A stretch of DNA of 64,000 nt from contig NZ_CP040710.1 in assembly GCF_005943945.1 (NCBI RefSeq), forward strand, positions 3,579,501 through 3,643,500. Reading direction: 5' to 3'. The notes under the pieces are model-generated. The model searched no databases, was not told the origin of the DNA, and saw only the letters and a list, made by a program, of their open reading frames with translations. Source of the DNA: Aggregatimonas sangjinii (GTDB lineage Bacteria > Bacteroidota > Bacteroidia > Flavobacteriales > Flavobacteriaceae). A program made the translations under genes and the position numbers. Of the stretch, positions 9,625-35,090 are shown piece after piece; the stretch's first letter is position 1; every line of letters begins with the position of its first letter.

Positions 9625-9965
9625 AGTTTTTAATTTGTGGGAAAAGTAGCGCGTACAAATGGAGAAACCATCCTGTACTTACAGGTAAGACGCTAAAAAT
9701 CAATTCATTGTTTATTTAAATGGTGGTCTCATAATGTCGCAGCAGTACCGAGAGCATGATTTGTGAGGAACTCGAATCGCGTTGATGGAGCAAAACCTTT
9801 TATTCGTTTCGATCCCCCAAACAAGTGTGCGGCTGGTTGCGAATTCCAACTTTTTGGATTCAAGCGATTTCCATTGCGGCTTCAAACTTGAAGCTGCTTG
9901 TCACTTACGCAAATTCGCGTCGACAAGGTGATTTCGGAAAGGTAGATCTAATGCACTCAAATCCG
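9625..9965. other. intergenic region with a regulon promoter, otherwise no gene
   Basis: This 341-base gap holds the promoter of the large DUF5722 gene (9641-9676, minus). The rest should contain the end signal of the sulfatase operon; an inverted repeat GCTTCAA-ac-TTGAAGC at 9879-9894 is the only clear structure and lacks a T-run. A plus-strand frame starting near 9825 runs antisense into the sulfatase and I do not accept it as a gene. Confidence 0.5.
9641..9676 (-). promoter_or_regulatory. sugar-locus promoter, copy 1 (DUF5722-CBM3 gene)
   Basis: On the minus strand ACAGGATG (9676 to 9669), exactly 20 bases, then TACTTTTC (9648 to 9641). The box lies where a -33 element would be and the second box fits the Bacteroidota -7 (TAnnTTTG). 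The upstream half-site 10 bases before is ACCTG, the weakest of the set; here the box instead forms an inverted repeat, CCTGTA-ag-TACAGG. Confidence 0.75.
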
Positions 9966-11450
9966 TTATTTCTCGGTCTGCCGTGTCTTGATCTCGAGCG
10001 GGTCGTCTGCAAGGTCTCCTGTTTCGACGCGCCAATTCTCCAGTGCTTTTTTTAACTCGGACTGTTTTTCGGCATAGGCTTGGTCACCTGCAAGATTTGT
10101 CAATTGTCCCGAATCGTTATCCATATCGTACAATTCTTCAAAAGGTCTTCCCGATTCCAATTGCTTTAAAAGTCTGTATTGTAAAGGATGCGAATCTTTC
10201 GCCTCTAAAGTCGCCTGATAACTTCTATTGGCCCAAGCTTCCTCGACCCTCAAATCCGCCGGAAGTTCGTAGCTCTTTTCGTGCATAAGATTCTGGATGT
10301 AATAGAAACGCCCGTCAAAAACAATCCTACTGGGATAATGCTCCACCCGCGGCGGACCATGGGAATTGTGCTCTCCGAAAATATAATCCCGTTCTGCGAC
10401 TTTTTCGGCTTTACCGGAAAAAATAGGTCGTAAGGATTTTCCCTGCACTGTTTCAGGGATGGCGATATCCACATAATCCAATATGGTCGGCATGATGTCT
10501 ATATGTGAAATAAGCGCCTCGGAAACCTTATCCTTTGTCACTCCGGGACCACTGACGATGTAGGGCACATGCAAGCCGGCATAATAAGCAGAAGCTTTAG
10601 CCCGATGATAAGGCTCACCTTGGTCCCCCGTAAAAATAATCAAGGTATTTTCCAATAGATCATTCTCCCGTAGTGCGGCTATAATTTGTCCTGCACAGGC
10701 ATCGGCCAACTGTACCGATCCATAATATTTAGCCAGATCATCCCTCATTTTCGGGGTGTCGGGTAGGTAGGCAGGAACTTCTATACTGTCTTTGTTCGGA
10801 AGAAATTCCGGAAAGTCCTTCATGTGTTTGTCCAGGTTACGATGTGGAGGGGCAACATTGGCCTGAAAGAAAAACGGTTTGTTCCCTGCTTCCACGATAA
10901 AATCGGAAATTACCTTTTTAAATTCCTTTGGATTATTCTGAATTTCGTTCCGAGCGTCATAGGGAAACTTCCAGGGAGGGCTCATGTGGAATTTTTGAGT
11001 AATTGCCGTAAAATAGCCGTTTTCCTTAAGCAGTTCTGGCAACGTACTGATGTATTCATGAATACCCACCTTATCGATGGTCGAAGATTCCCTTGTAAAT
11101 TCCTTGTCACCGTCTACCAATCTCGGAGTAATCGTATTGCGCCAGTGACCGTTTGCATGGGGGAACATACCGGTCATGATAGAACTTCGGCTCGGCGAGC
11201 AGGAAGGTACTGAAGCAAAAGCGTTTGTAAACAACATGCCATCCTTGGCCAAATCTGTCGTGAAAGGCGTATGTATTCCCTTCGTACCCATAGCCTCTAA
11301 ATGACCGCCCTGGTCATCGGTCAAAATAAGTACCACATTAAGTGGTTTCTCATCCTCAGGTTTTTCTGGCGGCGTGGTTTTGGCGTCTTTGCAGGAAAGC
11401 GCGGCAAGAACCAGCGCAAAGGCAATGTATATGGAATATCGATTTTTCAT
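9966..11450 (-). CDS. S1-type sulfatase (lipoprotein)
   Basis: A 494-residue sulfatase with a lipoprotein signal (Cys20, LAALSC). The metal-binding Asp pair is in LILTDDQGG (Asp45-Asp46), and the formylglycine motif is C84-S-P-S-R (VPSCSPSRSSIMTG). A further metal-site region is visible as TGDQG and HNSHG. It is the last gene of a minus-strand operon (GH78-like, sulfatase, sulfatase) driven from the promoter at 14930-14965; the gap to the previous gene is 57 bases. Likely role is removal of sulfate esters from rhamnose-rich oligosaccharides at the outer membrane or in the periplasm. It resembles the heparan-sulfatase-like branch of S1, but I cannot assign the subfamily without alignment. Confidence 0.93.
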   Translation of the reverse strand: MKNRYSIYIAFALVLAALSCKDAKTTPPEKPEDEKPLNVVLILTDDQGGHLEAMGTKGIHTPFTTDLAKDGMLFTNAFASVPSCSPSRSSIMTGMFPHANGHWRNTITPRLVDGDKEFTRESSTIDKVGIHEYISTLPELLKENGYFTAITQKFHMSPPWKFPYDARNEIQNNPKEFKKVISDFIVEAGNKPFFFQANVAPPHRNLDKHMKDFPEFLPNKDSIEVPAYLPDTPKMRDDLAKYYGSVQLADACAGQIIAALRENDLLENTLIIFTGDQGEPYHRAKASAYYAGLHVPYIVSGPGVTKDKVSEALISHIDIMPTILDYVDIAIPETVQGKSLRPIFSGKAEKVAERDYIFGEHNSHGPPRVEHYPSRIVFDGRFYYIQNLMHEKSYELPADLRVEEAWANRSYQATLEAKDSHPLQYRLLKQLESGRPFEELYDMDNDSGQLTNLAGDQAYAEKQSELKKALENWRVETGDLADDPLEIKTRQTEK

Positions 11451-11507
11451 TTTTAGTATATTTTTGGTAAAAAAATCCTTCTGCTACGTGATAAATACAT
11501 TAAGCTT

Positions 11508-13118
11508 CTAGTCTTTCGACAGTTTTATTTTTGGATTATGCGATAAACCGCCTGGTCGAACACCATATTCCTCGGGAATATATTGCGAAACATCAAACTT
11601 CGGATTGGGAACGGGAACAACGGTTTTGGCGTTAGTGAGGTGATTCGTGATATGCAAGTCCAATTCCTTCACCTTATCAGGATATATCGTTGCTAGGTTG
11701 TTCGCTTCCCCGATATCCCATTTCAGATTGTACAATCTGTAATCATGTGCTCCATCTTCGCCCCTGTTAAAAAGGCGAATCAATTTCCAATCGCCATCGT
11801 GAACCGATACAGATGCTGGCAGCCATTGCGGTACGGGCGGTTGGTGCGGAAAATAGTTGATAATCGGTGCTCTTTCAAGTGCTTTACCTTGTAATGCTTC
11901 AGTGATATCGACCCCATCGATGACATGGTTCTCCGGCGTTTCAAGATTCAGCTGTTTCATTAAGGTCGGATAAAAATCCGTGGATTGTATCAATGCATCC
12001 GACCTTGCTCCTGGTTCGGTAAGTCCGGGCCAAACCACGATACAGGGAACGCGGACCCCACCTTCGAACATGGTTGCCTTTCCCCCTCGCAAGGGTGTAT
12101 TGCTGGTGGGCGAAGTGAGGAATTCTTCTCCGTTGGGCAGCGTTTCTACAATACCGTCGTACATATTACCGCCGTTGTCACTAAAGAAAATAATTATCGT
12201 ATTGTCCGTCATGCCCAGCCGGTCTATTTCATCCAGTAACGAACCTACCGCATCATCCATCGAATGTACCATAGCCGCATAGGTTGGGGAATGTTGTAAA
12301 TCCTTTAAATTGGTCTTGGTGCGGTAGTACTTGATCAAACTTTCCTTCGCATCAAAAGGGGCATGTACCGAAAATTGCCAGTAATTCATAAAAAAAGGCT
12401 TGTTTTTATCCTGTTCGCGCAACCAAGAAACAGCTTCCTCCGCCATACGATCTTCTATATGTTCTTTGGCGTAATTAGCCTTAAAATCAGGATATTTCCA
12501 AGGTGCGACAAAACTACCCGCAGGTCCTGGTCCTTGCCAATGTGGGAGATCCACATCAAAACCGTGTTCCAATGGAGTGTAAGGCGGAAGACCCAAGTGC
12601 CATTTCCCAAAATGGGCGGTTGCATACCCTTTTTCCTTGATTAATTTTCCCAATGTAGGTAAGCTGGTGTTCAACCTAGTGGCAGAATTAGGAATGATCA
12701 CTTTGTTGTTAGGGGCTGCTTTATCGTTGATAGAAGCAATTAACCGAACCTCCGGCAAATGCGCTTGCGGTGCGGTAACACCATTTCTGGCAGGCGTTTG
12801 CCCAGTTAGAATGCTGGCCCGCGTCGGAGAGCACAACGGACTGGCCGCGTAGGCACGTGTAAAGGTCATACCGCGGGCCGCTAGTCTTTCGATATTCGGA
12901 GTTTCGTAAAAATCTGTGGTTCCGTAGAGACTCGTGTCGCTCCACCCCAAATCATCGGCAAGGATAAAGATAACGTTCATCTGCTTTTCTTCTTGGGATT
13001 GTAGGGTATGTGGACAAATGGCCAGTAAAAACGTGCATACCCCAAAGAAAATCAAATTATGAAGCCAAGGCTGTTTTTGCTGTATTCGATATACTAATGA
13101 CATAGTTTTATTTCTCAT
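11508..13118 (-). CDS. S1-type sulfatase
   Basis: A 536-residue arylsulfatase-like protein. N-terminal hydrophobic segment at about 20-36 (signal peptide, possibly starting from Met6), then ILADDLGWSD metal ligands and the formylglycine motif C96-S-P-T-R (SPLCSPTRASILTG). FSDNGG and GGVRVP strands of the alkaline-phosphatase-like fold are present. It starts 6 bases after the GH78-like gene and is clearly cotranscribed with it. Role: exo- or endo-desulfation of sulfated rhamnose units, inferred from context. Confidence 0.94.
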   Translation of the reverse strand: MRNKTMSLVYRIQQKQPWLHNLIFFGVCTFLLAICPHTLQSQEEKQMNVIFILADDLGWSDTSLYGTTDFYETPNIERLAARGMTFTRAYAASPLCSPTRASILTGQTPARNGVTAPQAHLPEVRLIASINDKAAPNNKVIIPNSATRLNTSLPTLGKLIKEKGYATAHFGKWHLGLPPYTPLEHGFDVDLPHWQGPGPAGSFVAPWKYPDFKANYAKEHIEDRMAEEAVSWLREQDKNKPFFMNYWQFSVHAPFDAKESLIKYYRTKTNLKDLQHSPTYAAMVHSMDDAVGSLLDEIDRLGMTDNTIIIFFSDNGGNMYDGIVETLPNGEEFLTSPTSNTPLRGGKATMFEGGVRVPCIVVWPGLTEPGARSDALIQSTDFYPTLMKQLNLETPENHVIDGVDITEALQGKALERAPIINYFPHQPPVPQWLPASVSVHDGDWKLIRLFNRGEDGAHDYRLYNLKWDIGEANNLATIYPDKVKELDLHITNHLTNAKTVVPVPNPKFDVSQYIPEEYGVRPGGLSHNPKIKLSKD

Positions 13119-13124
13119 GTGATA

Positions 13125-14882
13125 TTATCTTAATATTTCAAGCCCATCGGGGGCATCTATTGTGGTTTCTATGTTACCATCGACCTGTACATGACGTACT
13201 TTAAGTACCCCGAATTTGGTCGGGAAACTGCCTTTTGCAAATTCGAGATTACCGAGGTGTGGGGTAATTTTAACGGTATCGCCACCATTCAAAACATTGA
13301 TGCCAAGCACGTGTTGACTCAACCAAGGGGTCGGTCCACTTGCCCAGCCATGGGCAAAGCTATGCCGGTACCCTACATAGCAATACTCCCCAAAATCGCC
13401 GTGAATGTCGTTTTTACCGGCAGGTACCAATTCATCTATTCGGGTGCTATTGCGAACATCCAGCACATCAAAATCTTCCCAGAAAGATGTTGCGCCCAGG
13501 TCGAGCATGCCACCCCAGTAATCACTTATAACTTTCAAAGCACCTTCATAATCCCCGGCTTTCGCCATGGCTTCCAGGATATAATAGCCATAAAAGGTCG
13601 ACATGCGCTGAACGCCGTCTACTTTCAATACGTTTTCGTTTGTCTTTTGTGCATCGGCGAGACCGGTCATTACCATAAGGGCAGCCGCCTGTTTAGTTGT
13701 ATTTCCTTTAGGCTTATGCTTGCGGAGTCGTTTGGCCACCGCATCGTATTTTTGACCTAGTTCCGGTTTATTCAGAACGTTCATCAATTCGCTTCCCGCT
13801 TCGAAAGTCATGATCATCATGGCTTGAAGCCCTGCATGAACCGCTTTTGGTTTTTCGCTTGTTGGCCAATCCAAAAAACGGACTCCGTTTAAAACCTCCT
13901 TATTATCCTCATCGATAAAGGTCTCCAACAAATCTAAAAGCGCGATCATATAGCTTTCTTGCTCCGTTAGATAATTTAGGTCACCATGGTATTGGTACCA
14001 TTCTTTATGAATCAACAACCACCACATCGAATAGGAGCTGATTCCGTTCATCCATTCCGGTAACGGATGCTGATCTCGGGCTAAATCCAAACTTTTCGGG
14101 ACTACTTCATTTTTGCCGAATACCGTATTTACCGTCATCACCTCGGGGTGTAGGTCGCCAACCCAGACCAATCGGTCACGTTTGATCCCGTCCCAAAGGT
14201 AATTTTGCATATTTAGGTGCACCGTATAGGCTCCCGTCATCCAAATATCATTTAGACGTTTATCACTGCTTTCAAAACTTCCGAGATACGGAATATCACG
14301 GTATATAAAAGAAGCATCGATTGATTTTATAGGGGCATCTTCATCAGCTTCCACTACATCGATACGTAAAAAACGGAAACCCGTCTCCCCTACTTCGATG
14401 GAGCCGAGCCAAGGCACTTCTACTATAAAATCCCGCAAAGCATGCTCGTTGGTAGCGTTGCGTTCGCCACCAATATCGGACATGGCCTCTCCGACCGATT
14501 CCCCAAAACGCAGACGTAGCTTAAGCGGTGTCTTGCTAGGTCGAATACCCATCGAAATTTTTACCCCACCATGTATTTCCTTACCATAATCCAATAAAAT
14601 TCCCGGTTTATGCTCTTCGGTACTTATTAAATTAAAAAGGTCTTTATCATTGACCGCCACCTGACCCGAGCCCTTTTGCAACAAGGTTTCGGCATTTTTG
14701 ATGAAGGTATCGCTTTCATCGGATCGCCAAATGATTCGTTGCGGGGTAAGGTAGGTCTTCACCATATCGGAATGGCTTGCCTTATCTTCGTAATCAGCTC
14801 CGAAAACGGGAGGAAGTTGTGCTATCATACAGTGAACAAATAGTAACAGGACTGTTGTACAGATTAATTTTTTCATTTTCAA
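13125..14882 (-). CDS. short GH78-like alpha-L-rhamnosidase
   Basis: A 585-residue protein with signal peptide (about 1-21). It has the GH78 six-hairpin catalytic region and a small N-terminal beta domain, but lacks the long N-terminal modules of the two full-size GH78 proteins in this locus. The usual DCPQRDER-GW acid motif is replaced by DGIKRDRLVWVGD, one residue shorter and without the RDER glutamate; the second acidic motif is kept as GATSFWEDFD. This form occurs in a distinct GH78-related branch, so activity on rhamnosides is likely but not certain. First gene of a three-gene operon with two sulfatases, with the regulon promoter upstream and divergent from the GH78 gene at 15127. Confidence 0.85.
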   Translation of the reverse strand: MKMKKLICTTVLLLFVHCMIAQLPPVFGADYEDKASHSDMVKTYLTPQRIIWRSDESDTFIKNAETLLQKGSGQVAVNDKDLFNLISTEEHKPGILLDYGKEIHGGVKISMGIRPSKTPLKLRLRFGESVGEAMSDIGGERNATNEHALRDFIVEVPWLGSIEVGETGFRFLRIDVVEADEDAPIKSIDASFIYRDIPYLGSFESSDKRLNDIWMTGAYTVHLNMQNYLWDGIKRDRLVWVGDLHPEVMTVNTVFGKNEVVPKSLDLARDQHPLPEWMNGISSYSMWWLLIHKEWYQYHGDLNYLTEQESYMIALLDLLETFIDEDNKEVLNGVRFLDWPTSEKPKAVHAGLQAMMIMTFEAGSELMNVLNKPELGQKYDAVAKRLRKHKPKGNTTKQAAALMVMTGLADAQKTNENVLKVDGVQRMSTFYGYYILEAMAKAGDYEGALKVISDYWGGMLDLGATSFWEDFDVLDVRNSTRIDELVPAGKNDIHGDFGEYCYVGYRHSFAHGWASGPTPWLSQHVLGINVLNGGDTVKITPHLGNLEFAKGSFPTKFGVLKVRHVQVDGNIETTIDAPDGLEILR

Positions 14883-14929: not shown

Positions 14930-14965
14930 TAAAAGTATATCTTGGGTGGTGTATATCCGTCCTGT
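14930..14965 (-). promoter_or_regulatory. sugar-locus promoter, copy 2 (GH78-like/sulfatase operon)
   Basis: On the minus strand ACAGGACG (14965 to 14958), 20 bases, then TACTTTTA (14937 to 14930). A half-site GCAGT lies 10 bases upstream of the box. The -7 box ends 47 bases before the ATG at 14882. Confidence 0.78.
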
Positions 14966-15049
14966 ACCATACTGCTAGAAACATCCGTCCCCAAAAATCA
15001 TGTAGGCATTTTCAAGTGTACAATATCCTTTTAAAAGGGACAGGTAAGC

Positions 15050-15085
15050 ACAGGATGCCTTATTACGATTTTCCATATAGTATTG
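15050..15085 (+). promoter_or_regulatory. sugar-locus promoter, copy 3 (GH78 gene)
   Basis: ACAGGATG (15050-15057), 20 bases, TAGTATTG (15078-15085). A second ACAGG lies exactly 10 bases upstream (15040-15044). The site rules out translation from the upstream in-frame ATG at 15016 and supports the ATG at 15127. Confidence 0.77.
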
Positions 15086-15126
15086 TTTCTCTCCACTATA
15101 TCTTGAACATTAAACAATTAAAGCTC

Positions 15127-17988
15127 ATGAACAAACCTGTACTATTTCTACTCATTGGATTATTATTCGTTTCATGCGATCAAAAAGATTTAAACGAAAA
15201 TATCGTAGTCGAGAGCGTAACCGTTAACTATTTACAAAACCCTTTGGGTTTGGATGACCGGCAACCAAGCATCACCTGGACGATGTCTTCCAAAGGCAAG
15301 AACAAAAGGCAATCGGCGTACCAAATACGAGTCGCTGATACCGAAATCAAACTTAAGGAAAATAAGAACATTACCTGGGATAGCGGGAAATTGAGCTCCT
15401 CGCAAAATACGCAGGTACGCTACGACGGGCCTGCCTTAAAGTCTGGACAACAGTGCTATTTTCAAATCAAGGTCTGGGACGAAAACGATACCGCTTCAGA
15501 CTGGAGCGAAACCCATTTCTGGACCATTGGACTGCTCGCTAAGGAAGACTGGAAAGCAGACTGGATTTCATTCAAGACAACCGATTCGGGAGTATCGGAT
15601 TCCCTTTTCCTACCCGCTGCGTCGTACCTGCGAAAACCATTTTCCGTTTCCGAAAAAATAAAGCGCGCTACCTTATATGTTACTTCCCTTGGTGTGTTCG
15701 AAATGTCATTGAACGGGCAGAAGATAGGTGAAGACCTCCTCACGCCCGGTTGGACGGACTATACTAAACGCATATACTACAAAACATACGACCTCAGCGA
15801 GGGGCTTCAGGATGGCACCAATGTTCTAGGAAGTATTTTGGGCGATGGTTGGTATTCCGGTTATGTTGGCCCGAAGGAACTGTCGAATCCCCGAAATAGG
15901 GAATTGTACGGGCTGCAGCCAGCACTGTTCTGCCAATTGGAAATCGAGTACGAGAGCGGTAAAAAGGAATCGATCGTTTCCGATGAGAGTTGGAAAGGCT
16001 CCGAAGGGCCGATTTTTTATGCAGATCTACTTATGGGAACGGGCTACAATGCCAATTTGGAATTAACGGATTGGGACAAACCAACCTACAGCGACACGGA
16101 TTGGAGCAATGTACAACTGCACAAAGGGTCACAGGGAATCCTGCAAGCCTATCCCGGAAACAGTATTCAAGTGTACGATGAGCTAGAACCCGTAGCCATT
16201 ACCCAGCCTAAAGAAGGTACCTTTATTTTTGATCTTGGGCAAAATTTTGCCGGTCATGCAAGACTAAAGGTTTCGGGAAATAAAAACGACACCATCGTTA
16301 TGCGGTTCGGTGAGCGTTTGCACCCAGACGGCACCTTGATGACCGAAAACCTGAGATTCGCTAGGGCGACCGATACCTACATCCTTAAGGGTGGGGAAAT
16401 GGAGGAATGGGAACCCAAATTTACCTATCACGGATTTCAATACGTGGAAGTTACCGGTTTGAAAACCGCACCTGATACCAGTACCATCACGGGAATTGCA
16501 TTCGGATCCTCGATACCGATGAATAGCTCCTTTACCTCTTCAGATCCCATGTTGAACCGTTTGTACGAGAACGTATGTTGGACACAGCGGTCCAATTTTA
16601 TGGAAGTACCTACCGACAGCCCGCAACGCGATGAACGTCTGGGTTGGCTGGGGGACGTACAGATTTTTTCAAAGTCTGCCCTTTACAATGCCAATCTAGG
16701 CGCGTTTAACGGCAAGTGGTTTGCCGATGTGCGCGATGCACAGTACGATTTCGGGGCTTATTCGACCTTTGCTCCTCGGCCTTATCCTGAACTCGTTTGG
16801 TATTCTCCGGGGTGGATGGAAGCCGGTGTAATGGTACCTTACAATACCTATAAATTTTACAAGGATACCAAGATGATCGAAAAGCATTACGAGTCTATGA
16901 CCCGTTTTATGGAGTATCATATCGAAAAGAGCAGTGAAACCGATTACTTCTATCCTGAAAATTCTTGGACCGAGGTCGGTCCCAAAGGTGGTTTTGGCGA
17001 TTGGCTCTCCATGACCGAAAAACATCTTGCGCATGATATCATGGCATCAATGTATTACCAGTACACCCTTAAAATCATGGCGGAAATGAGCGAGGCAATC
17101 GGTAAAAACACAGCTGCAAAAAGGTATCGGGACATCTATAACATCTCGGTCAAAAACTTTATCGCACACTATATAAACGAAGAAAGGAAATTTGTTATCG
17201 ATGAGACGGCCTATGGCGATGGCAAAGGCTATTTTGAGGGCGAAAAGGGGTTTACGGGTCATACGCAATCGGCTTATGCCACGGCGATTTACTTTGATCT
17301 ATTTCCAGAAAATCTAAAGCAACAAGCCGGAGGACATTTGGTACAGCTCATTGAGGCCAATGACTATCTGCCTTCCTCTGGCATCTTGGGCATCCGACAA
17401 TTGTTACCTGCTTTGGCAGCTATAGGCCGGTCTGATTTGGCCAATCGAATACTGCTGAACAAAGATTACCCGAGTTGGGGGTTTCAAATCGAAAACGGGG
17501 CGACCACCATTTGGGAACGATGGAACAGCTACACCCCGGAAAAAGGCTTCAATGGGGCCATGAACGCCAAAATGAACTCCTTCAACCACTATGCCTTCGG
17601 TGCTTTTTCACAGTACTTGTTCAGTGAAATAGCCGGGATAGCAACAGAGGATGCGGGTTTCAACACGATAAAAATCCAACCGCATCTTGGCAATCACAAA
17701 TTAACGCATGTTGCAGCGACCTATGAATCAATAAACGGCCCTATAAAGTCATCTTGGTCTATAAAAAACGATAGGTTTTATTTAGAGGTGCACATTCCTG
17801 TAAACACGATCGCAAAAATCCATATTCCGAATAAAAATAATGGTCAAATTAAAGAAAATGGGAAACTGGTAGACCAAAAATCATTGAAATCTTCAACAAT
17901 CAAAAAAAACTACAGTGTACTTATTAGAGGTTCAGGAGATTACAATTTTGAATCGAATATCGAAACCTTAAAAGACCCAATGAAATAA
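15127..17988 (+). CDS. alpha-L-rhamnosidase, GH78 (lipoprotein)
   Basis: I place the start at 15127, giving 953 residues with a lipoprotein signal (Cys17, LLFVSC); the frame is open back to 15016 but the promoter boxes lie between. Modules follow the bacterial rhamnosidase order: Ig-like N-terminal domain, beta-sandwich domains, (alpha/alpha)6 catalytic domain and C-terminal beta domain. Catalytic motifs are DSPQRDERLGWLGD with candidate general acid Glu503 and GATTIWERW with candidate base Glu797. GH78 enzymes are inverting exo-acting rhamnosidases. It stands divergently from the GH78-like/sulfatase operon; both sides have their own regulon promoter. Likely function is release of terminal L-rhamnose from desulfated oligomers in the periplasm. 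Confidence 0.94.
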   Translation: MNKPVLFLLIGLLFVSCDQKDLNENIVVESVTVNYLQNPLGLDDRQPSITWTMSSKGKNKRQSAYQIRVADTEIKLKENKNITWDSGKLSSSQNTQVRYDGPALKSGQQCYFQIKVWDENDTASDWSETHFWTIGLLAKEDWKADWISFKTTDSGVSDSLFLPAASYLRKPFSVSEKIKRATLYVTSLGVFEMSLNGQKIGEDLLTPGWTDYTKRIYYKTYDLSEGLQDGTNVLGSILGDGWYSGYVGPKELSNPRNRELYGLQPALFCQLEIEYESGKKESIVSDESWKGSEGPIFYADLLMGTGYNANLELTDWDKPTYSDTDWSNVQLHKGSQGILQAYPGNSIQVYDELEPVAITQPKEGTFIFDLGQNFAGHARLKVSGNKNDTIVMRFGERLHPDGTLMTENLRFARATDTYILKGGEMEEWEPKFTYHGFQYVEVTGLKTAPDTSTITGIAFGSSIPMNSSFTSSDPMLNRLYENVCWTQRSNFMEVPTDSPQRDERLGWLGDVQIFSKSALYNANLGAFNGKWFADVRDAQYDFGAYSTFAPRPYPELVWYSPGWMEAGVMVPYNTYKFYKDTKMIEKHYESMTRFMEYHIEKSSETDYFYPENSWTEVGPKGGFGDWLSMTEKHLAHDIMASMYYQYTLKIMAEMSEAIGKNTAAKRYRDIYNISVKNFIAHYINEERKFVIDETAYGDGKGYFEGEKGFTGHTQSAYATAIYFDLFPENLKQQAGGHLVQLIEANDYLPSSGILGIRQLLPALAAIGRSDLANRILLNKDYPSWGFQIENGATTIWERWNSYTPEKGFNGAMNAKMNSFNHYAFGAFSQYLFSEIAGIATEDAGFNTIKIQPHLGNHKLTHVAATYESINGPIKSSWSIKNDRFYLEVHIPVNTIAKIHIPNKNNGQIKENGKLVDQKSLKSSTIKKNYSVLIRGSGDYNFESNIETLKDPMK

Positions 17989-18086
17989 AGGTTTCCGGGG
18001 TGGATTACTTGAAAACACATGGTCGATTTAGGAATATGTAAAAAAGAGCGTAATTAATTGTCAAAATGGAATTTCATCAGCATAGT

Positions 18087-18122
18087 ACAGGATGCATCAA
18101 CAAAAAAGTACGTTTATCATTG
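18087..18122 (+). promoter_or_regulatory. sugar-locus promoter, copy 4 (susCD)
   Basis: ACAGGATG (18087-18094), 20 bases, TATCATTG (18115-18122). A half-site TCAGC lies 10 bases upstream. The -7 ends 51 bases before the SusC start. Confidence 0.78.
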
Positions 18123-21236: not shown

Positions 21237-21254
21237 GGAACAAAAAAAATAATC

Positions 21255-22748: not shown

Positions 22749-22776
22749 GAGCACACTTATTTATCAATTCGTAAAG

Positions 22777-22807
22777 AGAGACTACCTTTGTTGTGTAGTC
22801 TCTTTTT
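22777..22807 (+). terminator. intrinsic terminator after susD
   Basis: A perfect 9-base stem, AGAGACTAC (22777-22785) with GTAGTCTCT (22795-22803), 9-base loop, then a run of T to 22807. It lies only 15 bases before the next gene, so GH78 expression must depend on read-through or on a promoter inside susD. Confidence 0.85.
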
Positions 22808-22821
22808 ATGAATATTGTAAC

Positions 22822-25593: not shown

Positions 25594-25954
25594 TGGCCGT
25601 CGTGGCAATCCCCGCTAAGCAGTGGTATAACGTATGGACCAATATTCTCAACGGAAGTACCGCGCTAAGGTGTTCGAAAAAGACAGGAGTTCGATATCGC
25701 CCTCCCGACGAATTAGAAAAGTGGGGCTTATCCCCAAATAACACAGGGTACCACAGGATGCGATTTCTTAGGGATACGCTTAAATTCAACCGATTGGCGA
25801 AGCACCCATCCTGAATATTATAAAGAGCGTCTACGCTCGGATGCTTTTTCTCTTGATTTACAAAAATTCTTCGTCAACCTCTACAAATAGATGTGCCGAA
25901 AGACTTTTTCAACAAAGAGGGGACGAAAATAAACCGCCTTTAAATACCACTAGA
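25594..25954. other. intergenic region with regulon promoter and long leader
   Basis: The gap between the GH78 gene and the symporter holds promoter copy 5 (25753-25788). If the ATG at 25955 is right, the leader is about 160 bases. I see no terminator for the preceding gene and no other coding frame that looks real. The frame of the symporter is open back to 25841, but the extra residues show no homology-like pattern. Confidence 0.5.
25753..25788 (+). promoter_or_regulatory. sugar-locus promoter, copy 5 (symporter/sulfatase)
   Basis: ACAGGATG (25753-25760), 20 bases, TAAATTCA (25781-25788), the weakest -7 of the set. A second ACAGG lies exactly 10 bases upstream (25743-25747), making a perfect direct repeat. 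Confidence 0.7.
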
Positions 25955-27409: not shown

Positions 27410-27548
27410 TATTCGCGTTTTGTGCAAAGCAGTGCGATATAGGTTATTTTCATCATAAATACGTATTCTTAGCTCTTAAGATATTCATTTTGAATTAGGC
27501 AAATTTGCGGAGCGAGCGTATAGTCCGTTGCATATTTTGAAACATCCC

Positions 27549-29048
27549 ATGAAAAAGACTTCCGTATTTCTTTTGTGTATCTCTTGCTTTCTATTCTCTT
27601 GTAAAGATGGCGGAGAACAAGCATCTGAAAACACGCGATCTTCGCGTCCCAATCTTCTTATCGCACTCTCCGATCAGCATTCTTTTGATATGATAGGGGC
27701 CTATGGTAACGAGCAAATTATCACCCCGAATCTGGATCAGTTCGCAAAAGAAGGCATGCTCCTCGCAAATGCATTCTCAAGCCAACCCGTTTGCACGCCC
27801 TTCCGAGGTATGATAATGAGTGGTATGCATCCTTTAAAAAATGGTGCTTTTACGAATGATACCCCACTCCTACCCCACAAGACGAAGTTATTGGGTCAGA
27901 TTTTAAAGGAAGAAGGTTACCAGACCGCCTATATTGGGAAATGGCATTTACTGGGAGGCGATCGGGATAGACCCATTCCAAAAGGTAAAATGCGCTACGG
28001 TTTTGATACGTTGTTGACCAACAATTGCCAAACGGATTTTAGAGCTGGTGAAGCTTATTTTTGGAACGACAAAGGTGAAAAGGAATATTTTGACGAATGG
28101 GAAGTATATGGGCAAACGAAACAGGCGCTCTCCTATTTGGACGATATTGATCCCGAAAGACCCTTTGCGCTAATAGTTTCTTGGCACCCACCGCACGATT
28201 GGGGCAAATTTAAGGGGCAGGATGGGAAAATGCACTACCGATATGATACTTTGGAGGAGCTGATGGCACTATACGATAGGGATTCTATAAAAATGCGGCC
28301 GGGATTGAAATCTACTCCCGACCGAAAACGAATGTATCATGGCCATATGGCCATGATAAGTGGTGTGGATAAGGCGTTTGGAATGTTGATGGATAAACTT
28401 AAAGAGCTGAAATTAGAAGAAAATACGGTAACACTTTTTTCGGCAGATCATGGGGATATGTTGGAATCCCACAATGCAGTGCTACCCAAACAGTATCCCC
28501 ATGATTACTCCAACCATATACCGTTTTTGATAAAATTTCCTAAAAAAATCCCCAAAGGAGCCAGTTCCGAGGTATTGCTCGGTACCATGGATATCATGCC
28601 AACGGTATTGGGTTTGATGGATATCGAAAGTAATCAAAAGTATGATGGCAAAAACCTTTCTAAGCAATTGCAAGATATATCCGCCGATAGCCCAACTTAC
28701 GTTCCCTTATGGAATATGAACAGAGGTGAGCGACAGAAAAACAATTGGCGCGGGGTGGTGACCAAGGAGTTTACTTTTGCGATAGGTCAGGATTCTTTGG
28801 AAATTTTAAATGTGCTATACGACCGCCAGAACGATCCAAATCAACTAAACAATCTTTTTAGAAACCCGAAATACAGTGCGAAAAGAGAGAAGTTAGAAAA
28901 GATGACTTGGGAATGGATGGGACGCTTGCAGGACAAGTTTTATGGGCCATCGGATTTTCTGGAAGCAAGGCCGGAGGAAGGATGGGGGTACCAAATGAAT
29001 AAGAGTCCCTTGGAACTATTACAGGAATTGAAAGAAGTATCGAACTAA
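27549..29048 (+). CDS. S1-type sulfatase (lipoprotein) with CTPFR motif
   Basis: The ATG at 27549 gives 499 residues with a lipoprotein signal (Cys18, FLFSC). The N-terminal metal site is LIALSDQHS, with one Asp where most sulfatases have two. The formylglycine motif is C82-T-P-F-R (QPVCTPFRGMIMSG), which keeps the C-x-P-x-R core but has Phe in the fourth place instead of Ser, Thr or Ala. C-terminal features include FSADHGDM and NHIPFLIKFP. It resembles the choline-sulfatase/heparan-sulfatase-like side of S1. Its stop directly abuts the stop of the convergent sulfatase gene at 29049, with no terminator between them. Confidence 0.92.
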   Translation: MKKTSVFLLCISCFLFSCKDGGEQASENTRSSRPNLLIALSDQHSFDMIGAYGNEQIITPNLDQFAKEGMLLANAFSSQPVCTPFRGMIMSGMHPLKNGAFTNDTPLLPHKTKLLGQILKEEGYQTAYIGKWHLLGGDRDRPIPKGKMRYGFDTLLTNNCQTDFRAGEAYFWNDKGEKEYFDEWEVYGQTKQALSYLDDIDPERPFALIVSWHPPHDWGKFKGQDGKMHYRYDTLEELMALYDRDSIKMRPGLKSTPDRKRMYHGHMAMISGVDKAFGMLMDKLKELKLEENTVTLFSADHGDMLESHNAVLPKQYPHDYSNHIPFLIKFPKKIPKGASSEVLLGTMDIMPTVLGLMDIESNQKYDGKNLSKQLQDISADSPTYVPLWNMNRGERQKNNWRGVVTKEFTFAIGQDSLEILNVLYDRQNDPNQLNNLFRNPKYSAKREKLEKMTWEWMGRLQDKFYGPSDFLEARPEEGWGYQMNKSPLELLQELKEVSN

Positions 29049-30710
29049 TCACTCAATGGTCACTTTGCCCAATTCAAAACTCAGGCTGTCAGGCATAGCC
29101 GATGGCACATACACTTTACCCGAACCCCGGTCGCCTTGGGGAGAATAGTGTGGGCTCTTCATTGTACTTTCAGGTTTATAATCGTTAGTACCGCTTTCGG
29201 CAACCCACCAAGCCAACCACTTGTTTTCCAATTCATTTACGATACTTGGGTGCTCCCGGGAAACATCAGAGGTCTCTAAGGGATCTTTGTCATTGTCATA
29301 AAGTTCCCAACCGCTCCCATCAACTTCCACTAGACTCCAAGTGTCAGTGCGAATGGCACGATTGTCCATAAATTGAAAGAAAAGTGGCGATTTGCGTTCC
29401 CAGGGTTCTCCATTTAAGATGGGTAACACCGATTTCCCCGCAAAAGCGCTACTATTTGCTAAAGTGTTGGAATCGGTGATTCCTGCAGCCTCTAGAACCG
29501 TAGGCATAATATCAACTACGTGCAGGGGTTCCGACTTGATAACATTCGGTCGGTCGATACGCGCCGGCCACCAAGCTAAGGCACCTGTTTTTACCCCTCC
29601 TCCATGTTGACTGATTTTATAAAGCCTTTTTGGAGTGACACTGGCATATGCCCATCCGGTACCTGGCTGGTAATTAGAACCCGCATCACCGGGCAAAAGC
29701 CCTTTTGAGAGCATTACGGAGTCCATGACCGAAAAAGAATCAGTACCATTATCGCTCAAAAACAAAATCAACGTATTTTGATCTTGCCCATTGGCTTTTA
29801 AAGCCGCCATTAATTGGCCGATACCTCTATCCATTCGTTCGACCATCGCAGCATAGACGGCCATTCGTAAATCCTCTAAATCTTTTTGCGCTGGGGAGAG
29901 TGTTTCCCAATCAGGTAAATTTTCAGGGTATTCGGGCAAAGGCGTATCGGCATTCAACAAACCGAGGGTCAACTGCTTTTGGACCCTGGCATCACGTACC
30001 GCCTGCCATCCTTTGGAATAGCTTCCACGGTAGGCCATGATATCCTCCTTGTACGCCTGCAATGGATTGTGCGGAGCCTGATAACTCAGATAGAGGAAAA
30101 AAGGATCATCTTCTTCATCTGACTTTGGACTAATGAAATCAACCGCTTTTGCACTAAAGGCATCGGTACTGTAAAAATTTTCACCAAAATCATCATATAC
30201 CTCTTTATTCATGCGATAATCGGTACTTCCATTAAAATAGGACGAATAGCCGCCTAAAAATCCAAAAAACGAATCAAAACCTTTGTCGTTTGGTTCGCCG
30301 TCCAGATGCCATTTGCCGACCAATCCGGTGCGATAGCCCTCACTTTGTAGCACCTGTGCAAGATTGGTGCCTTTCTCAATCCCAAAACCGACTTTTGGCC
30401 ACCATTGCCCCGAGAGCATAGAGCTACGGGAAATGACACACATCCCGGCATTGTGCATGTTGGAAAGACGTATTCCCTCCTTTGCCATTTGATTTAAGTT
30501 AGGTGTAAAGATTTCCCCACCATAAGCACCTATGTCACTATATCCTAGATCATCTGCAACAATCAAGATGATATTAGGTCGCGCAGGCACTTGGGATTTC
30601 TTTTCTTCACAGGACAAAAAAAGTACGGCCAATACGCTAGCGAGACCTAAGGGAAAAGCTCTTAATACGAGTGAGGCTAAAAGTTTGAATATGAAATTAA
30701 TATTTATCAT
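29049..30710 (-). CDS. sulfatase-fold protein with altered maturation motif (CVISR)
   Basis: A 553-residue lipoprotein (Cys34, LFLSC) with a full sulfatase fold: IVADDLGYSDIGAYGG metal ligands, GKWHLDG, FLSDNGTD and the C-terminal FQFMDNRAIRT region. The maturation site reads C91-V-I-S-R (GMCVISRSSMLSG): Cys and Arg are kept but the Pro of C-x-P-x-R is Ile; the bases (TGT GTC ATT TCC CGT on the minus strand) leave no doubt. Either this subgroup is matured differently or it is not formylglycine-dependent. It is the last gene of the operon DUF5722, sulfatase, sulfatase driven from 34634-34669. Confidence 0.88.
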   Translation of the reverse strand: MININFIFKLLASLVLRAFPLGLASVLAVLFLSCEEKKSQVPARPNIILIVADDLGYSDIGAYGGEIFTPNLNQMAKEGIRLSNMHNAGMCVISRSSMLSGQWWPKVGFGIEKGTNLAQVLQSEGYRTGLVGKWHLDGEPNDKGFDSFFGFLGGYSSYFNGSTDYRMNKEVYDDFGENFYSTDAFSAKAVDFISPKSDEEDDPFFLYLSYQAPHNPLQAYKEDIMAYRGSYSKGWQAVRDARVQKQLTLGLLNADTPLPEYPENLPDWETLSPAQKDLEDLRMAVYAAMVERMDRGIGQLMAALKANGQDQNTLILFLSDNGTDSFSVMDSVMLSKGLLPGDAGSNYQPGTGWAYASVTPKRLYKISQHGGGVKTGALAWWPARIDRPNVIKSEPLHVVDIMPTVLEAAGITDSNTLANSSAFAGKSVLPILNGEPWERKSPLFFQFMDNRAIRTDTWSLVEVDGSGWELYDNDKDPLETSDVSREHPSIVNELENKWLAWWVAESGTNDYKPESTMKSPHYSPQGDRGSGKVYVPSAMPDSLSFELGKVTIE

Positions 30711-30772
30711 AAGTGCTTTAGAAATTCTTAAAATGCATGATATACGTTAAAATCGCTGAAATGGATTAAGGG

Positions 30773-32485
30773 CTAACCTCCATTTTCCTGATTTTGGCGA
30801 TAGGTTTCGAATAGATTAACAAAAGGAGTACCGCGTGCCTCTTTTTCCGGGTTATAGCTTGGATTCAATGCGGGCCAATATCGCTGCGCTACATTGGCTG
30901 ACAACCACTCCATTAATTTTTCAAACAGCTTGTTTCGTAGTTCCGGCCGTGTTTCCGCCAAATCATTTTTTTCAAATGGGTCGGTTTCGATATCGTAGAG
31001 ATGCAATCGCCCGTACCAATCAAAAATCAATTTATGATTACCATCACGAATGGCGGAATGCGGGGTTAGCGCGAACGGTTCAAAAGGACTATTATAGATC
31101 ACGTTAAAAGGGTAGTGCCAATAACGGACCTTTTTGGTATAGCTGTTTTTGCTATTCGTTACATCGGAAAGCACGGTGAACATACTTTGGCCATCGAGCG
31201 AATTTTTCTTGGATATCGCTTCAGAATCATAACCAGCCGCTTCCAACAGGGTCGGGAAAATATCGGTACAATCTACGGGCGTGTCTACCCATTGTCCTTC
31301 CTTAATTTTATTTTTCCACCGAAATAGTAGGGGCACACGAATGCCTCCTTCGGTCAAACAAGCTTTCCCTCCTAAGAATGGACTGTTATCCGTTCCCGTA
31401 TCATTTGGGGTAATACTGGAATCGATACCGCCATTATCCGACATAAAGACCACCAAGGTATTTTCATCTAGGCCCGTCTCTTCGAGCTTGTCCAGAATCG
31501 CCCCCACTGAACGGTCCATACTCTTTACCATGGCTGCATAGACGGGGTCTTTGTGCCCATTCCATCCTTTCGTAGGTTTTTCTTCAAAATAAGTGACTTC
31601 ATCGGATTTACCTTCATACGGCGCATGCACGGCAAAATGTGAAAAATAGAGGAAGAAGGGTCGTGTCTTGGATTTCGAACTTTCTTCAATAAAATTCAAT
31701 GCTTGGAGCGTCAGATCATCGGTCAAATAGTTGGCTCCGGTTTCTTGACCCGAATTTCCCATATGCATCTTTTCCTGTGGAATCTTCGGGTATCCCGCGG
31801 TAGAGGTATTGTCCCAGCTCTTTCTCCAATCAAAATAATCGGAACCACCAGCATCATACCAGGCCAAGGGTTCGAAACCTTGGTCGGCAGGTTGGTAACC
31901 GTTGGCCCCGAAACCGCCAATATGCCATTTCCCGATAAAAGCGGAATGATAATCGGTCAGAGCCTCGGCAAGCGAGAGTTCATCCCTGCCAGCATCGTAT
32001 GTCGTTCCTGCGGACACAGCGGAATTGGAAGTGCCGTTGATAAGGGCTTGTTCGATTTTGATATCATCTTTATGTTCTAACACATCATGCATAAGATAGC
32101 CTTGGGGCGCCGGTAAATTTTGATTGTAATACGTAGGTCTAGGCGGCATGGCCGTAGTGAATCCCATTCGACTTGCGAACTTTCCGGTTAAAATACTGGC
32201 GCGTGTCGGCGAACATAATTGATTGGCGTAGGCTTGCGAAAAAGCTACCCCCTCGTGAATCAAGCGGTCAATATTAGGCGTTTCATAAAACATATCGGAA
32301 GTAGGGCTATCCGTAAATTTATGGGCATAAGCCTGACTGTCCATAATACCGTAATCATCGGCAAGGATAAAAATAATATTCGGTCGTGTGGTCGTTCGTT
32401 CTGCTACTTTTTCCTCTTTTGTCGTAGACTTACAACCAAGTACAAAGAGCAGCACAACATATAAGCATGTCTTGAAATAAGTCAT
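30773..32485 (-). CDS. S1-type sulfatase (lipoprotein)
   Basis: A 570-residue lipoprotein (Cys18, FVLGC). N-terminal metal site ILADDYGIMD; formylglycine motif C91-S-P-T-R (NQLCSPTRASILTG); GKWHIGGFG and FMSDNGGID also seen. It is the middle gene of a minus-strand operon, 22 bases after the DUF5722 gene and 62 bases before the CVISR sulfatase-fold gene. Likely removes sulfate from rhamnose-rich oligomers; subfamily not assigned. Confidence 0.94.
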   Translation of the reverse strand: MTYFKTCLYVVLLFVLGCKSTTKEEKVAERTTTRPNIIFILADDYGIMDSQAYAHKFTDSPTSDMFYETPNIDRLIHEGVAFSQAYANQLCSPTRASILTGKFASRMGFTTAMPPRPTYYNQNLPAPQGYLMHDVLEHKDDIKIEQALINGTSNSAVSAGTTYDAGRDELSLAEALTDYHSAFIGKWHIGGFGANGYQPADQGFEPLAWYDAGGSDYFDWRKSWDNTSTAGYPKIPQEKMHMGNSGQETGANYLTDDLTLQALNFIEESSKSKTRPFFLYFSHFAVHAPYEGKSDEVTYFEEKPTKGWNGHKDPVYAAMVKSMDRSVGAILDKLEETGLDENTLVVFMSDNGGIDSSITPNDTGTDNSPFLGGKACLTEGGIRVPLLFRWKNKIKEGQWVDTPVDCTDIFPTLLEAAGYDSEAISKKNSLDGQSMFTVLSDVTNSKNSYTKKVRYWHYPFNVIYNSPFEPFALTPHSAIRDGNHKLIFDWYGRLHLYDIETDPFEKNDLAETRPELRNKLFEKLMEWLSANVAQRYWPALNPSYNPEKEARGTPFVNLFETYRQNQENGG

Positions 32486-32507
32486 TTTCGTACCAGTATT
32501 ACTTGAA

Positions 32508-34607
32508 TCAATCGATTTTTACCTCACGCCGAATCTCGTCCCAGCTCTCGATTCCGATTATTTTTTTGTACGGGTCGTACACTTCGTCTTCCTGGTCCGT
32601 TCCAAAAGCTTGGTACACCCGATACACTGGCTTGATACCTCCCGGATCTTCCTCATCATCCGGAAAACGGCGCAACCCGATGCGCAATCCGCCCTCTTGT
32701 CGATTATCCTGCCAGTTATGGTACTGAAAACCATCAATACCCTCCAGATATTTGATTTTTTTCATGGCATAAGCCATTCCGGCGGCCTGTTCCAGCAAAT
32801 CTTGTTCGCTGTATGTTGGCGAATTCGTTCCGTTCTCGGAGAGATACACCAAGCGCTTTGTCTTCCCTTTAAAGAGAACTTCGGGCTGACGCACCCACGC
32901 GTCCAAAACCTCGGTATTCTTGAAGGTGATCAATTGGGTATCAAAATCGAAACTCACTCTTTCGTCCAACCATGTTTTTGGCTCCCGAAGCGATTCAGGA
33001 TAAGGGTGTTGTGCAATGGCCCATTCAAAATCACCCTCCGCTTTGGAAAATTGCAGCAGTTGCTCCAACAGTTCTTTAGAGTGATAGAAATGTGGATTAT
33101 TAGTCCAATTCCAAAAATGGGTCAGCGTGATAAAAACCTTCGAATTGGAATTGTATTTTCGAGCGATATTGTGTGACATTCGCATCGATTTGTGGTAGAG
33201 ATCCATAAAAACCAGCGCAGTTTTATCCCCGGCATTGGTCCAAACCCATCCCGCATCCACCTCATTGTGAATGATCCAATGGTGAATGCGCCCGTACTTC
33301 TTATCCGGCCTTGTGTAGCGGTTCGCCAAAAAATCAAGTACCGCCGCATAATATTGTACGCCCTCGGGAGTAGTTAAATTGGGCATACTATAAATTCCAG
33401 CAGGGTCACAATCGGGATGTTGAAAAATGCGCCCGATTTCAGCGTCTTCGGTTTTCGAGGCTTTGTCTACTAACAAAATAGCCGATACCTCGATGTTCCT
33501 TTCCGCGGTAGAACGAAACGTCTTATCATGTTGTGCAAGGGTTTCTTTATCTACGTAATAGGTAGCCCCCATATATTCGAAAGCCATATTATTTGGCGAA
33601 GGTCCCGACCGTAGCAGCCGGGTAACCAAAATATTGACCGTAGCACTGGTGATACCCAAATCATCGAGATCGGTATAGGGTGCTTCACGATCAATACTGT
33701 AGCCGCCCAATCCCTTCTTGGTGGCTGGTTTTACAAAGGGATAGTTATGTTTAGGAACGATGGAATCGGCATACCGCGCGTGTGAGACGGCTTTGTAGTG
33801 TTCACCCTCCTTTTCTACTACCATCCATTTTGAAAGAACACGATCCTGAGTAAATCCATGTCGATCCACAGTACGGTCTATGGCGATATTGAATTTACTT
33901 TCGGTAGAATTCAAGGGTATCACAGATTCAAAGGTTTTCAGCTCTGTACTATGTTCATAGGGACTGACTTCGGCGATAAAAAGATTTTTACTATCCGATA
34001 CGGTTCCTTCTAACCGTACTTTGTCATCGGATACCAAGACGTGTGATATTTGATTATGAAAGTCATTATTCAAATAGGAAGTCAAATTATTCTCGAGAAT
34101 CGCTTCCTGCTTCTTCTGATCCTCTTTTTTTGCTTCTATTTCCGCTTCACGTTCGGTTTGTGGGCGGAGCTTCAAATTTCGTATCTGAATTTTCAATGCT
34201 GGGGCCGCGCCAAAATCCAACCGAAGGTATTCGCCCTTCTTGCCCCAATCCTTCAATTCTTCACTAATGTCTATCTTAAATTCGACCCAGCCTTCCGTAG
34301 ACCCGATATCCCGGACGATTTTGGGTTCAAACACTTCTTTTAACGGATAAAAATAAACTTCGATAAAATCGACCCCGGTCGGGCAAAAATATTCAAATGC
34401 CAAATAGTCGTTCTCTTTATCCAAATCTGCACCTAAAGGATTGGAAAACAGATAAGGATCCTTACCTGTGGTTTCAATATCATAAACTCCCTTCTCCGTG
34501 ATTTCCATCTGAAGGTCATTCGCTTCTCTCGCATGCAGCGAGAGTTCCGTTTCCTGCCCGAAAACACCTAGCGGTAATCCCAAAAAGAGTAAAATATACT
34601 TTTTCAT
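32508..34607 (-). CDS. DUF5722 protein, short paralogue
   Basis: A 699-residue secreted protein with signal peptide (about 1-17, VFGQ). One copy of the N-terminal beta domain seen three times in the giant paralogue (about 20-150), a coiled linker rich in E/K (about 151-172), a beta domain (about 175-285) and the DUF5722 barrel (about 295-699). The two candidate catalytic glutamates are conserved as Glu449 (WIIHNEVD) and Glu591 (VYLSENG), in the spacing expected for strands 4 and 7 of a clan GH-A barrel. It has no CBM3 and no T9SS signal, so it should act in the periplasm. First gene of an operon with two sulfatase-fold proteins. I infer a periplasmic glycosidase partner to the surface enzyme at 4948-9624. 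Confidence 0.87.
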   Translation of the reverse strand: MKKYILLFLGLPLGVFGQETELSLHAREANDLQMEITEKGVYDIETTGKDPYLFSNPLGADLDKENDYLAFEYFCPTGVDFIEVYFYPLKEVFEPKIVRDIGSTEGWVEFKIDISEELKDWGKKGEYLRLDFGAAPALKIQIRNLKLRPQTEREAEIEAKKEDQKKQEAILENNLTSYLNNDFHNQISHVLVSDDKVRLEGTVSDSKNLFIAEVSPYEHSTELKTFESVIPLNSTESKFNIAIDRTVDRHGFTQDRVLSKWMVVEKEGEHYKAVSHARYADSIVPKHNYPFVKPATKKGLGGYSIDREAPYTDLDDLGITSATVNILVTRLLRSGPSPNNMAFEYMGATYYVDKETLAQHDKTFRSTAERNIEVSAILLVDKASKTEDAEIGRIFQHPDCDPAGIYSMPNLTTPEGVQYYAAVLDFLANRYTRPDKKYGRIHHWIIHNEVDAGWVWTNAGDKTALVFMDLYHKSMRMSHNIARKYNSNSKVFITLTHFWNWTNNPHFYHSKELLEQLLQFSKAEGDFEWAIAQHPYPESLREPKTWLDERVSFDFDTQLITFKNTEVLDAWVRQPEVLFKGKTKRLVYLSENGTNSPTYSEQDLLEQAAGMAYAMKKIKYLEGIDGFQYHNWQDNRQEGGLRIGLRRFPDDEEDPGGIKPVYRVYQAFGTDQEDEVYDPYKKIIGIESWDEIRREVKID

Positions 34608-34633
34608 AAACCTATATCATTTTCTGTTGCCTC

Positions 34634-34669
34634 TAAAAGTAAGGCCTGCTTTCGTGCGAACCATCCTGT
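34634..34669 (-). promoter_or_regulatory. sugar-locus promoter, copy 6 (DUF5722/sulfatase operon)
   Basis: On the minus strand ACAGGATG (34669 to 34662), 20 bases, TACTTTTA (34641 to 34634). A half-site ACAGT lies 10 bases upstream. The -7 ends 26 bases before the ATG. Confidence 0.78.
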
Positions 34670-35054
34670 GGTATACTGTTTACCAAGCGCAAACCGAGAC
34701 AGGCTACTTTAAAAAGACAGATGCTCTAGGCGCCAAGAAATAACCCTTATTCCTTGTGATTTTGAGCTAAAAGAAATGGGCGACCCAATAAGGTATCATA
34801 ATACTTCTGGCAAAAGCATCGATTTCCGTTAGCGATGTCCTTGAACCGTGAACCTTTGGTTGACGCGAACACGGTTTGCCAAAAAAAGTTGCCTTTTTAT
34901 AATTGTCAGCCCTACAGGCGAAAAATTTTGAAAGCTGAAGAGCTAACGCAGCATCCCAACCATAGTTTATACAGTCTATTACGGTAGTGGCCATAAAACT
35001 AATCTGAAACCACCTTCAAACAACCTATTCGATTGTATATTTGAACGGTACAGT

Positions 35055-35090
35055 ACAGGATAGAATACCACGCTGTATATTTTATTTTCG
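35055..35090 (+). promoter_or_regulatory. sugar-locus promoter, copy 7 (aldolase/dehydrogenase)
   Basis: ACAGGATA (35055-35062), 20 bases, TATTTTCG (35083-35090). A half-site ACGGT lies 10 bases upstream. The -7 ends 26 bases before the ATG at 35117. Confidence 0.74.

Follow-up and report, generated by a model that had tools for sequence, protein, structure and literature searches.

AraR-type GntR proteins with LacI sensors have been described from Firmicutes, controlling genes for sugars and sugar polymers (PMC4494728). Here we analyze a 64,000-nucleotide stretch of the genome of the flavobacterium Aggregatimonas sangjinii (contig NZ_CP040710.1, positions 3,579,501 to 3,643,500; the whole stretch is called the window), in which seven sites built on a 10-bp direct repeat precede the operons of a sugar locus, together with a candidate regulator of these sites, the protein P0001. 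Like members of the AraR subfamily of the GntR family, to which AraR of Bacillus subtilis belongs, P0001 combines a GntR winged helix with a sensor of the LacI/GalR type (PMC4494728). AraR represses, whereas the putative P0001 sites are direct repeats held at a fixed phase, which suggests activation, and their host belongs to the Bacteroidota, not to the Firmicutes. AraR sites are palindromic. Because the subfamily is defined by its C-terminal domain, a non-palindromic operator is a difference from the AraR type and no exclusion from it (PMC4494728).

Rhamnose catabolism in Bacteroides thetaiotaomicron, a member of the same phylum, is controlled by RhaR, a positive regulator of the AraC family with 21-bp periodicity and one target operon (PMC3870299, PMC3878776). 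P0001 differs from it as a GntR/LacI-sensor protein whose putative sites have a 10-bp repeat and lie at about 19 promoters in three loci. The DeoR-type RhaR proteins also have two imperfect direct repeats, with a periodicity of 10-11 bp, at rhamnose genes (PMC3870299), but P0001 belongs to another protein family. GntR proteins of the NanR, FarR, NagQ and MocR type likewise use direct rather than inverted repeats (PMC4494728); P0001 is of another subfamily, and its repeat has another sequence. The carrageenan regulon of Zobellia galactanivorans, also a marine flavobacterium, offers a parallel in its dispersed polysaccharide genes under a positive regulator, although that regulator, CgrA, is of the AraC type (PMC5698469). 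In our search of the open-access literature, with most subscription papers outside its scope, no description of this operator or of the regulon came up. The AraR-like domain architecture is known; the operator geometry and the regulon appear to be new.

Seven putative operators in the window

The seven sites listed below are probably operators of a single rhamnose-responsive regulator, P0001, which would act as a class II activator centered at about -40.5. Each entry covers the operator, a spacer of 20 bases (N20) and the downstream box.

9641..9686, minus strand: operator (10-bp direct repeat), N20 and TACTTTTC; precedes the DUF5722/CBM3 gene at 4948-9624; the upstream half, ACCTGTAAGT, is poor
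14930..14975, minus strand: operator, N20 and TACTTTTA; precedes a GH78-like gene and two sulfatases
15040..15085, plus strand: operator, N20 and TAGTATTG; precedes a GH78 rhamnosidase with its ATG at 15127; the mechanical start of that open reading frame, 15016, lies upstream of the site
18077..18122, plus strand: operator, N20 and TATCATTG; precedes SusC/SusD/GH78
25743..25788, plus strand: operator, N20 and TAAATTCA; precedes a GPH-type sugar transporter and a sulfatase
34634..34679, minus strand: operator, N20 and TACTTTTA; precedes a DUF5722 gene and two sulfatases
35045..35090, plus strand: operator, N20 and TATTTTCG; precedes rhaEW; nearly identical to the site at genome position 1348339

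The original prediction had described these sites as a first box followed, at an invariant spacing of 20 bases, by TAnnWTT. Coordinates and strands proved correct, and a TAnn box lies exactly 20 bases on in all seven. The first box, given as ACAGGATG, is exact in five; the site at 14965 has ACAGGACG and the site at 35055 has ACAGGATA. The WTT part is absent from two (TAAATTCA and TATTTTCG), and the spacing, constant in the window, is 19 in three of the 11 sites that we kept at a second locus described below. Every operon of the sugar locus is preceded by a site, as had been claimed. Each of the seven has a long gene downstream, whose ATG is 52-89 nt away when counted from the first box base.

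The suggested one-turn direct repeat over the -33 region is also borne out, and the motif is longer than claimed: a 10-bp direct repeat, rCAGnAyAgy joined to ACAGGATrs, usually followed by 19 more bases up to the -7 box TAnnTTTG. The short pattern as claimed, allowing up to three mismatches, matches the window 66 times against 55.98 expected, and five of 100 shuffles reach 66; it is barely above chance there, and it is the longer motif that carries the significance. A matrix built from the 11 sites of the second locus ranks the seven window sites as the top seven in the window, with scores from 25.0 to 17.5, and the next scores are 13.9 (the 35055 site read shifted) and 12.6. In 100 Markov shuffles of the window the maximum score averaged 13.6, the highest being 22.0. 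Among the seven, the site at 35055 is almost the same as one of the training sites, since rhaEW was duplicated together with its promoter. In the reverse test, nine of the 11 second-locus sites ranked first there with a matrix from the six or seven window sites; the exceptions are 1305776, which scores 11.9, below seven other places, and 1324790, which is absent among the 18 matches listed.

The loose scan of the window gave eight places, from which the seven sites named earlier were kept, and that of the second cluster gave 19, from which 11 were kept by eye according to their position before genes and the look of the upstream half. An alignment of 17 sites, leaving out 35055 as a near-copy, has C at -9 in all 17, while 15 sites have A at -3 and 13 have G at -7; these column counts are somewhat flattering, since the upstream half helped in the selection, which was not wholly blind. 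A less biased view comes from exact short-form matches in the two loci, eight of nine of which have the CAG half 10 bp upstream.

We rejected a palindromic interpretation, as the symmetry is confined to the central GTAC. Aligned as direct repeats in 84 sites from across the family (defined below), the two units share the same majority base at nine of 10 positions. Neither our own sites nor these 84 gave a column signal 20-21 bp upstream, the period being 10 bp and not 21 bp, and the 84 sites gave no column signal for further upstream tandem units. Two operators outside the window, at genome positions 1307776 and 1346698, both before SusC genes, seem to run to three or four 10-bp units.

The motif elsewhere in the genome

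The genome has at least 11 more sites at 1.27-1.35 Mb, in the neighborhood of genes for rhamnose catabolism. In the scanned part of this second cluster the sites precede genes for SusC-like receptors, GH78 and GH106 rhamnosidases, sulfatases and a GMC oxidoreductase and, where a second copy of rhaEW is located, for rhamnose isomerase, an FGGY kinase and an FMN-dependent lactate dehydrogenase-like protein. Two additional matrix matches there, 1312773, which precedes a GH78 gene, and 1332508, which faces no gene longer than 100 aa, are outside the count of 11.

The original prediction was to fall if a genome scan found the motif just as often before unrelated genes. For the long motif it did not: the 14 genome matches to CMGNAYASYACAGGATRS with at most one mismatch (four in the window, nine in the second cluster and one at 3542207) all lie in three rhamnose or sulfatase/lyase loci. 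With two mismatches there are 20 matches, two of them window sites and 18 elsewhere, against 11 in all for the reversed pattern. The short form fared less well. Exact ACAGGATG-N19-21-TANNNTT occurs at 12 places, of which four are in the window, five in an 80-kb stretch at 1.267-1.347 Mb and three elsewhere (32023, 2444460 and 3951497), these last three being without the CAG half 10 bp upstream; ACAGGATG-N20-TA with one mismatch gives 259 matches, against 186 for the reversed pattern. The short form of the motif is not specific.

The site at about 3542207-3542216 (also recorded as L119:7216) stands alone, about 37 kb before the window, and precedes a gene of the alginate lyase family and two sulfatase genes. 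A match at 634428 was dropped, as it has no TAnn box at 20.

A candidate regulator and its distribution

No regulator was evident in the window, and the protein that tracks the motif is indeed encoded outside it, 2.2 Mb away. P0001 (genome 1347172-1348278, likely start at residue 21) is divergent from the second rhaEW copy with a site between them, beside the rhaEW-rhaI-rhaK genes. It has an N-terminal GntR winged helix (PF00392, E 1.5e-10, residues 37-100) and a C-terminal LacI/GalR-type sugar-binding domain (PF13377, E 1.8e-7). Against the PDB it matches the AraR DNA-binding domain 4egy (E 9.9e-6), a match that spans the DNA-binding domain only. For an ortholog that is 85% identical (L139), the best of five predicted models has a mean pLDDT (predicted local distance difference test score) of 85.1, and the worst 60.2; a structure search with the model returned SghR, LacI and CcpA structures at TM (template modeling) scores of about 0.5-0.6 to the query.

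The exact pattern CAGNAYASYACAGGATR occurs in 26 of 149 genomes of the family, with 70 matches and none for the reversed pattern. Close orthologs of P0001, defined by a cut at E <= 1e-130 that was placed in a gap (the next genome stands at 5e-83), are present in 28 of the 149, our own included, with 58-75% identity at the best match. All 26 motif genomes are among these 28 (Fisher 4.9e-27, ignoring phylogeny), and the other two, G100 and G121, carry matrix matches scoring 18.7 and 21.8 at most 500 bp away from the gene. Among ortholog genes in the stretches that we fetched, 23 of 34, belonging to 22 of the 28 genomes, have a matrix match of at least 13 within 500 bp.

The rhamnose isomerase RhaI is found in 32 of the 149 genomes, of which 27 have a close ortholog and five (G020, G024, G037, G064 and G108) have a P0001 sister of 41-43% identity on the RhaI contig; next to four of these five sister genes stands a drifted version of the rhamnose repeat. 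In G001 both regulator and motif are present, but no RhaI at the cut-off. We also fetched 80 loci with named hosts (Maribacter, Zobellia, Arenibacter, Flavobacterium and others) by protein alone: 77 hold a site scoring at least 15, with 154 sites against seven for the reversed control, many of the sites being orthologous promoters of close species. Six genomes (G002, G011, G044, G070, G132 and G134) encode more than one close paralog of P0001, in some cases arranged in tandem.

The motif might instead be bound by another rhamnose-linked regulator, of the AraC, LacI or DeoR type, with P0001 a passenger in the locus. AraC-type and LacI-type genes do occur near the second cluster, and DeoR-type RhaR proteins use a repeat periodicity of 10-11 bp (PMC3870299). 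However, the two control regulators that were profiled do not track the motif and were rejected on their distribution: at E <= 1e-60 the AraC-type P0002 is found in 11 of 149 genomes and the LacI-type P0003 in 78 (the profiling left aside the membrane AraC-type gene 1358704, the two-component genes at window 55-1603 and the sigma genes). Given also the sites close to P0001 orthologs in 22 genomes and the drifted sites beside the sister genes, we regard a passenger role as highly improbable; the AraC, LacI and extracytoplasmic function (ECF) candidates that had been put forward are not supported.

Promoter geometry and the galactokinase-linked sister clade

Spacing was studied in 84 sites of the family with scores of at least 15, taken from 40 stretches that were largely picked for motif or regulator; the site matrix does not cover the downstream -7 box. 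TA stands at N20 in 75 of the 84, whereas the next best of the spacings 14-27 has TA in 22 sites, and the box reads T78 A76 n n T75 T84 T59 G53, or TAnnTTTG. The 75 N20 spacers are unrelated (mean pairwise identity 32%, with 10 of 2775 pairs at 70% or more), therefore descent of whole promoters does not explain the fixed spacing. In the named set of 154 sites, N20 is found in 91 and N21 in 36, and nearly all N21 cases come from a single orthologous promoter of Flavobacterium next to the regulator gene.

The primary-sigma box of flavobacteria, TAnnTTTG, has been placed at -12 to -5, and the ECF-type motif has a CGT box (PMC9723704). Taking TAnnTTTG as -12 to -5, the operator occupies about -50 to -32, with its center at -40.5. 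For the seven window promoters the predicted transcription starts, about 5 bases past the TAnnTTTG box, are 9636, 14925, 15090, 18127, 25793, 34629 and 35095. CRP class II sites are centered at -41.5. At class II promoters the activator site lies over -33/-35 at one fixed distance and in one orientation, and this is the arrangement found, with 75 of 84 sites at N20.

An alternative sigma factor, which the original prediction had offered as a second possibility, would recognize ACAGGATG and the TAnn box, and the presence of two boxes at a fixed spacing speaks for it. The downstream box of the 84 sites, however, is the ordinary primary-sigma TAnnTTTG and not a CGT box (PMC9723704), the upstream element is a tandem repeat, and the GntR protein P0001 accounts for the distribution of the motif. 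Because the -7 box is ordinary we reject this explanation, to which we give almost no credence.

When 53 homologs were placed in a quick tree, the 34 rhamnose rows formed one group (support 99) and 12 others a separate one (support 95). A galactokinase gene lies within about 3 kb of all five genes tested among these 12 (L127-L138), and a galactose-1-phosphate uridylyltransferase gene was found in one case. Recognition-helix residues E78 and K79 are invariant in all 34 rhamnose rows, whereas the galactose rows have L/I and M/T/Q/F. All 12 sister loci contain a related repeat, ACyrGTwGGkwCyrGTwGG, at 17-19 of 19 positions, its consensus having been read from these same loci. The best fit is forward in four and reverse in eight, with the other strand fitting 13-17 of 19 positions; orientation is soft because the repeats are nearly symmetric, and the firmer contrast is the varying distance, with gaps of 3 to 23 from the repeat to the best-looking -7 box. 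As an observation in its own right, this galactokinase-linked GntR/LacI-sensor clade, with 10-bp tandem repeats like ACTrGTAGGT, is a candidate family of flavobacterial galactose repressors.

Activation or repression

From the computed motif, its spacing, its co-occurrence with P0001 orthologs, its adjacency to them in most genomes and the domain architecture, we infer the following mode of action. Each 10-bp unit is probably bound by one of two P0001 winged helices, in a head-to-tail arrangement. On its operator the protein would sit at the class II activator position and contact polymerase carrying the primary sigma factor, the -7 box of these promoters being ordinary. The ligand of the sensor would be rhamnose or a derivative formed on opening of the polymer, and the ligand-bound protein would turn on monomer catabolism jointly with the dispersed polymer loci, apparently in many flavobacteria. 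Phase is fixed in the rhamnose clade and not in the galactose clade; therefore activation through polymerase contact is favored, short of proof, and reading the repeats as activator sites is probably right.

The competing possibility is that P0001 is a repressor that covers the -33 region and leaves the DNA upon binding rhamnose. Most GntR sugar regulators are repressors. So is AraR, the described regulator with the architecture of P0001 (as given by PDB names and by a reference title in PMC4494728); moreover, the operator overlaps -33, and the galactokinase-linked sister clade shows repressor-like operator placement. What argues against repression is that the same spacing is kept in 75 of 84 sites despite unrelated spacers, while a repressor needs no phase and the sister clade has none. 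We consider repression unlikely.

Several observations weigh against P0001 as the activator of these promoters. Phase could be maintained for a repressor too, if its operator has to cover -33, and AraR, as noted, represses. The contrast with the sister clade is soft, resting on 12 loci, on a consensus from those loci and on guessed -7 boxes, of which several loci offer more than one. The missing -33 TTG says little: at gaps of 17-21 it was found in 8.5% of 71 non-regulon and 3.7% of 27 regulon TAnnTTTG sites, from which no conclusion is drawn, and as ordinary promoters show none clearly either, the earlier idea that an activator replaces the -33 element gains no independent support. Eleven of the 34 ortholog genes, including all those of six of the 28 genomes, are without a match of at least 13 within 500 bp, and the sister gene for L124 (G024) is the one of five without such a site beside it. 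In a class-wide sample of 395 genomes, whose homolog search scored at most five candidates per genome, a P0001 homolog (E <= 1e-70) is present in 28 and the exact motif in 17, and the two coincide in only six of the 28. The exact motif is absent from G248, G169 and G500 despite P0001 orthologs of 57-69% identity, and 11 genomes have one motif match without a homolog at that threshold. Chance would give, by a rough estimate, about 10 matches (28 bits, about 2.8e9 positions), and the reversed control gave none. Since homolog and motif coincide in six class-wide genomes, the exact pattern is not diagnostic outside the close orthologs.

Genes behind the window sites

The genes downstream of the seven sites are as follows.

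4948..9624, minus strand: 1558-aa protein with DUF5722, CBM3 and weak fn3 and secretion-tail matches
9966..14882, minus strand: GH78-like gene at 13125-14882 (ATG 14876) and S1 sulfatases at 11508-13118 and 9966-11450
15127..17988, plus strand: GH78 alpha-L-rhamnosidase
18174..25593, plus strand: SusC at 18174-21236, SusD at 21255-22748 and GH78 at 22822-25593
25841..29048, plus strand: GPH/MFS transporter and S1 sulfatase
29049..34607, minus strand: DUF5722 gene at 32508-34607 and two S1 sulfatases
35117..37222, plus strand: RhaEW, bifunctional rhamnulose-1-phosphate aldolase/dehydrogenase; second copy at genome 1348401-1350506

The gene rhaEW and its promoter are present twice, at window 35046-37228 and genome 1348330-1350512, with 98.6% identity over 2183 bp in loci 2.2 Mb apart; this is a recent duplication in which the operator was copied too. 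The substrate of the locus is likely a sulfated rhamnose/uronate polymer such as ulvan.

Two DUF5722 proteins (4948-9624 and 32508-34607), one of them with CBM3, fall in one regulon and are candidate rhamnose-glycan enzymes. Elsewhere in the window, 46701-48023 encodes an HTTM protein with the lumenal domain of vitamin K-dependent gamma-carboxylase.

Implications for polysaccharide use in Flavobacteriaceae

We lean, by a small degree, towards a broader interpretation in which a single flavobacterial family of GntR/LacI-sensor proteins, sharing 10-bp tandem-repeat binding, has a repressor-like galactose branch, whose operators vary in place, and a rhamnose activator branch locked at -40.5. The rhamnose branch would be a master switch that couples monomer catabolism to dispersed loci and replaces the usual local regulators of polysaccharide utilization loci. 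Our analysis names a candidate regulator and provides a searchable promoter signature for the use of rhamnose polymers in Flavobacteriaceae. With it, the promoter alone could link sulfatases, DUF5722 proteins and lyases that lack annotation to the breakdown of rhamnose glycans. A further suggestion is that a cytoplasmic sensor of the monomer, and not a local sensor, switches some of the large polysaccharide loci. If the broader interpretation is true, the two sister branches would form a paired system in which to study the use of one DNA-binding family for both repression and activation.

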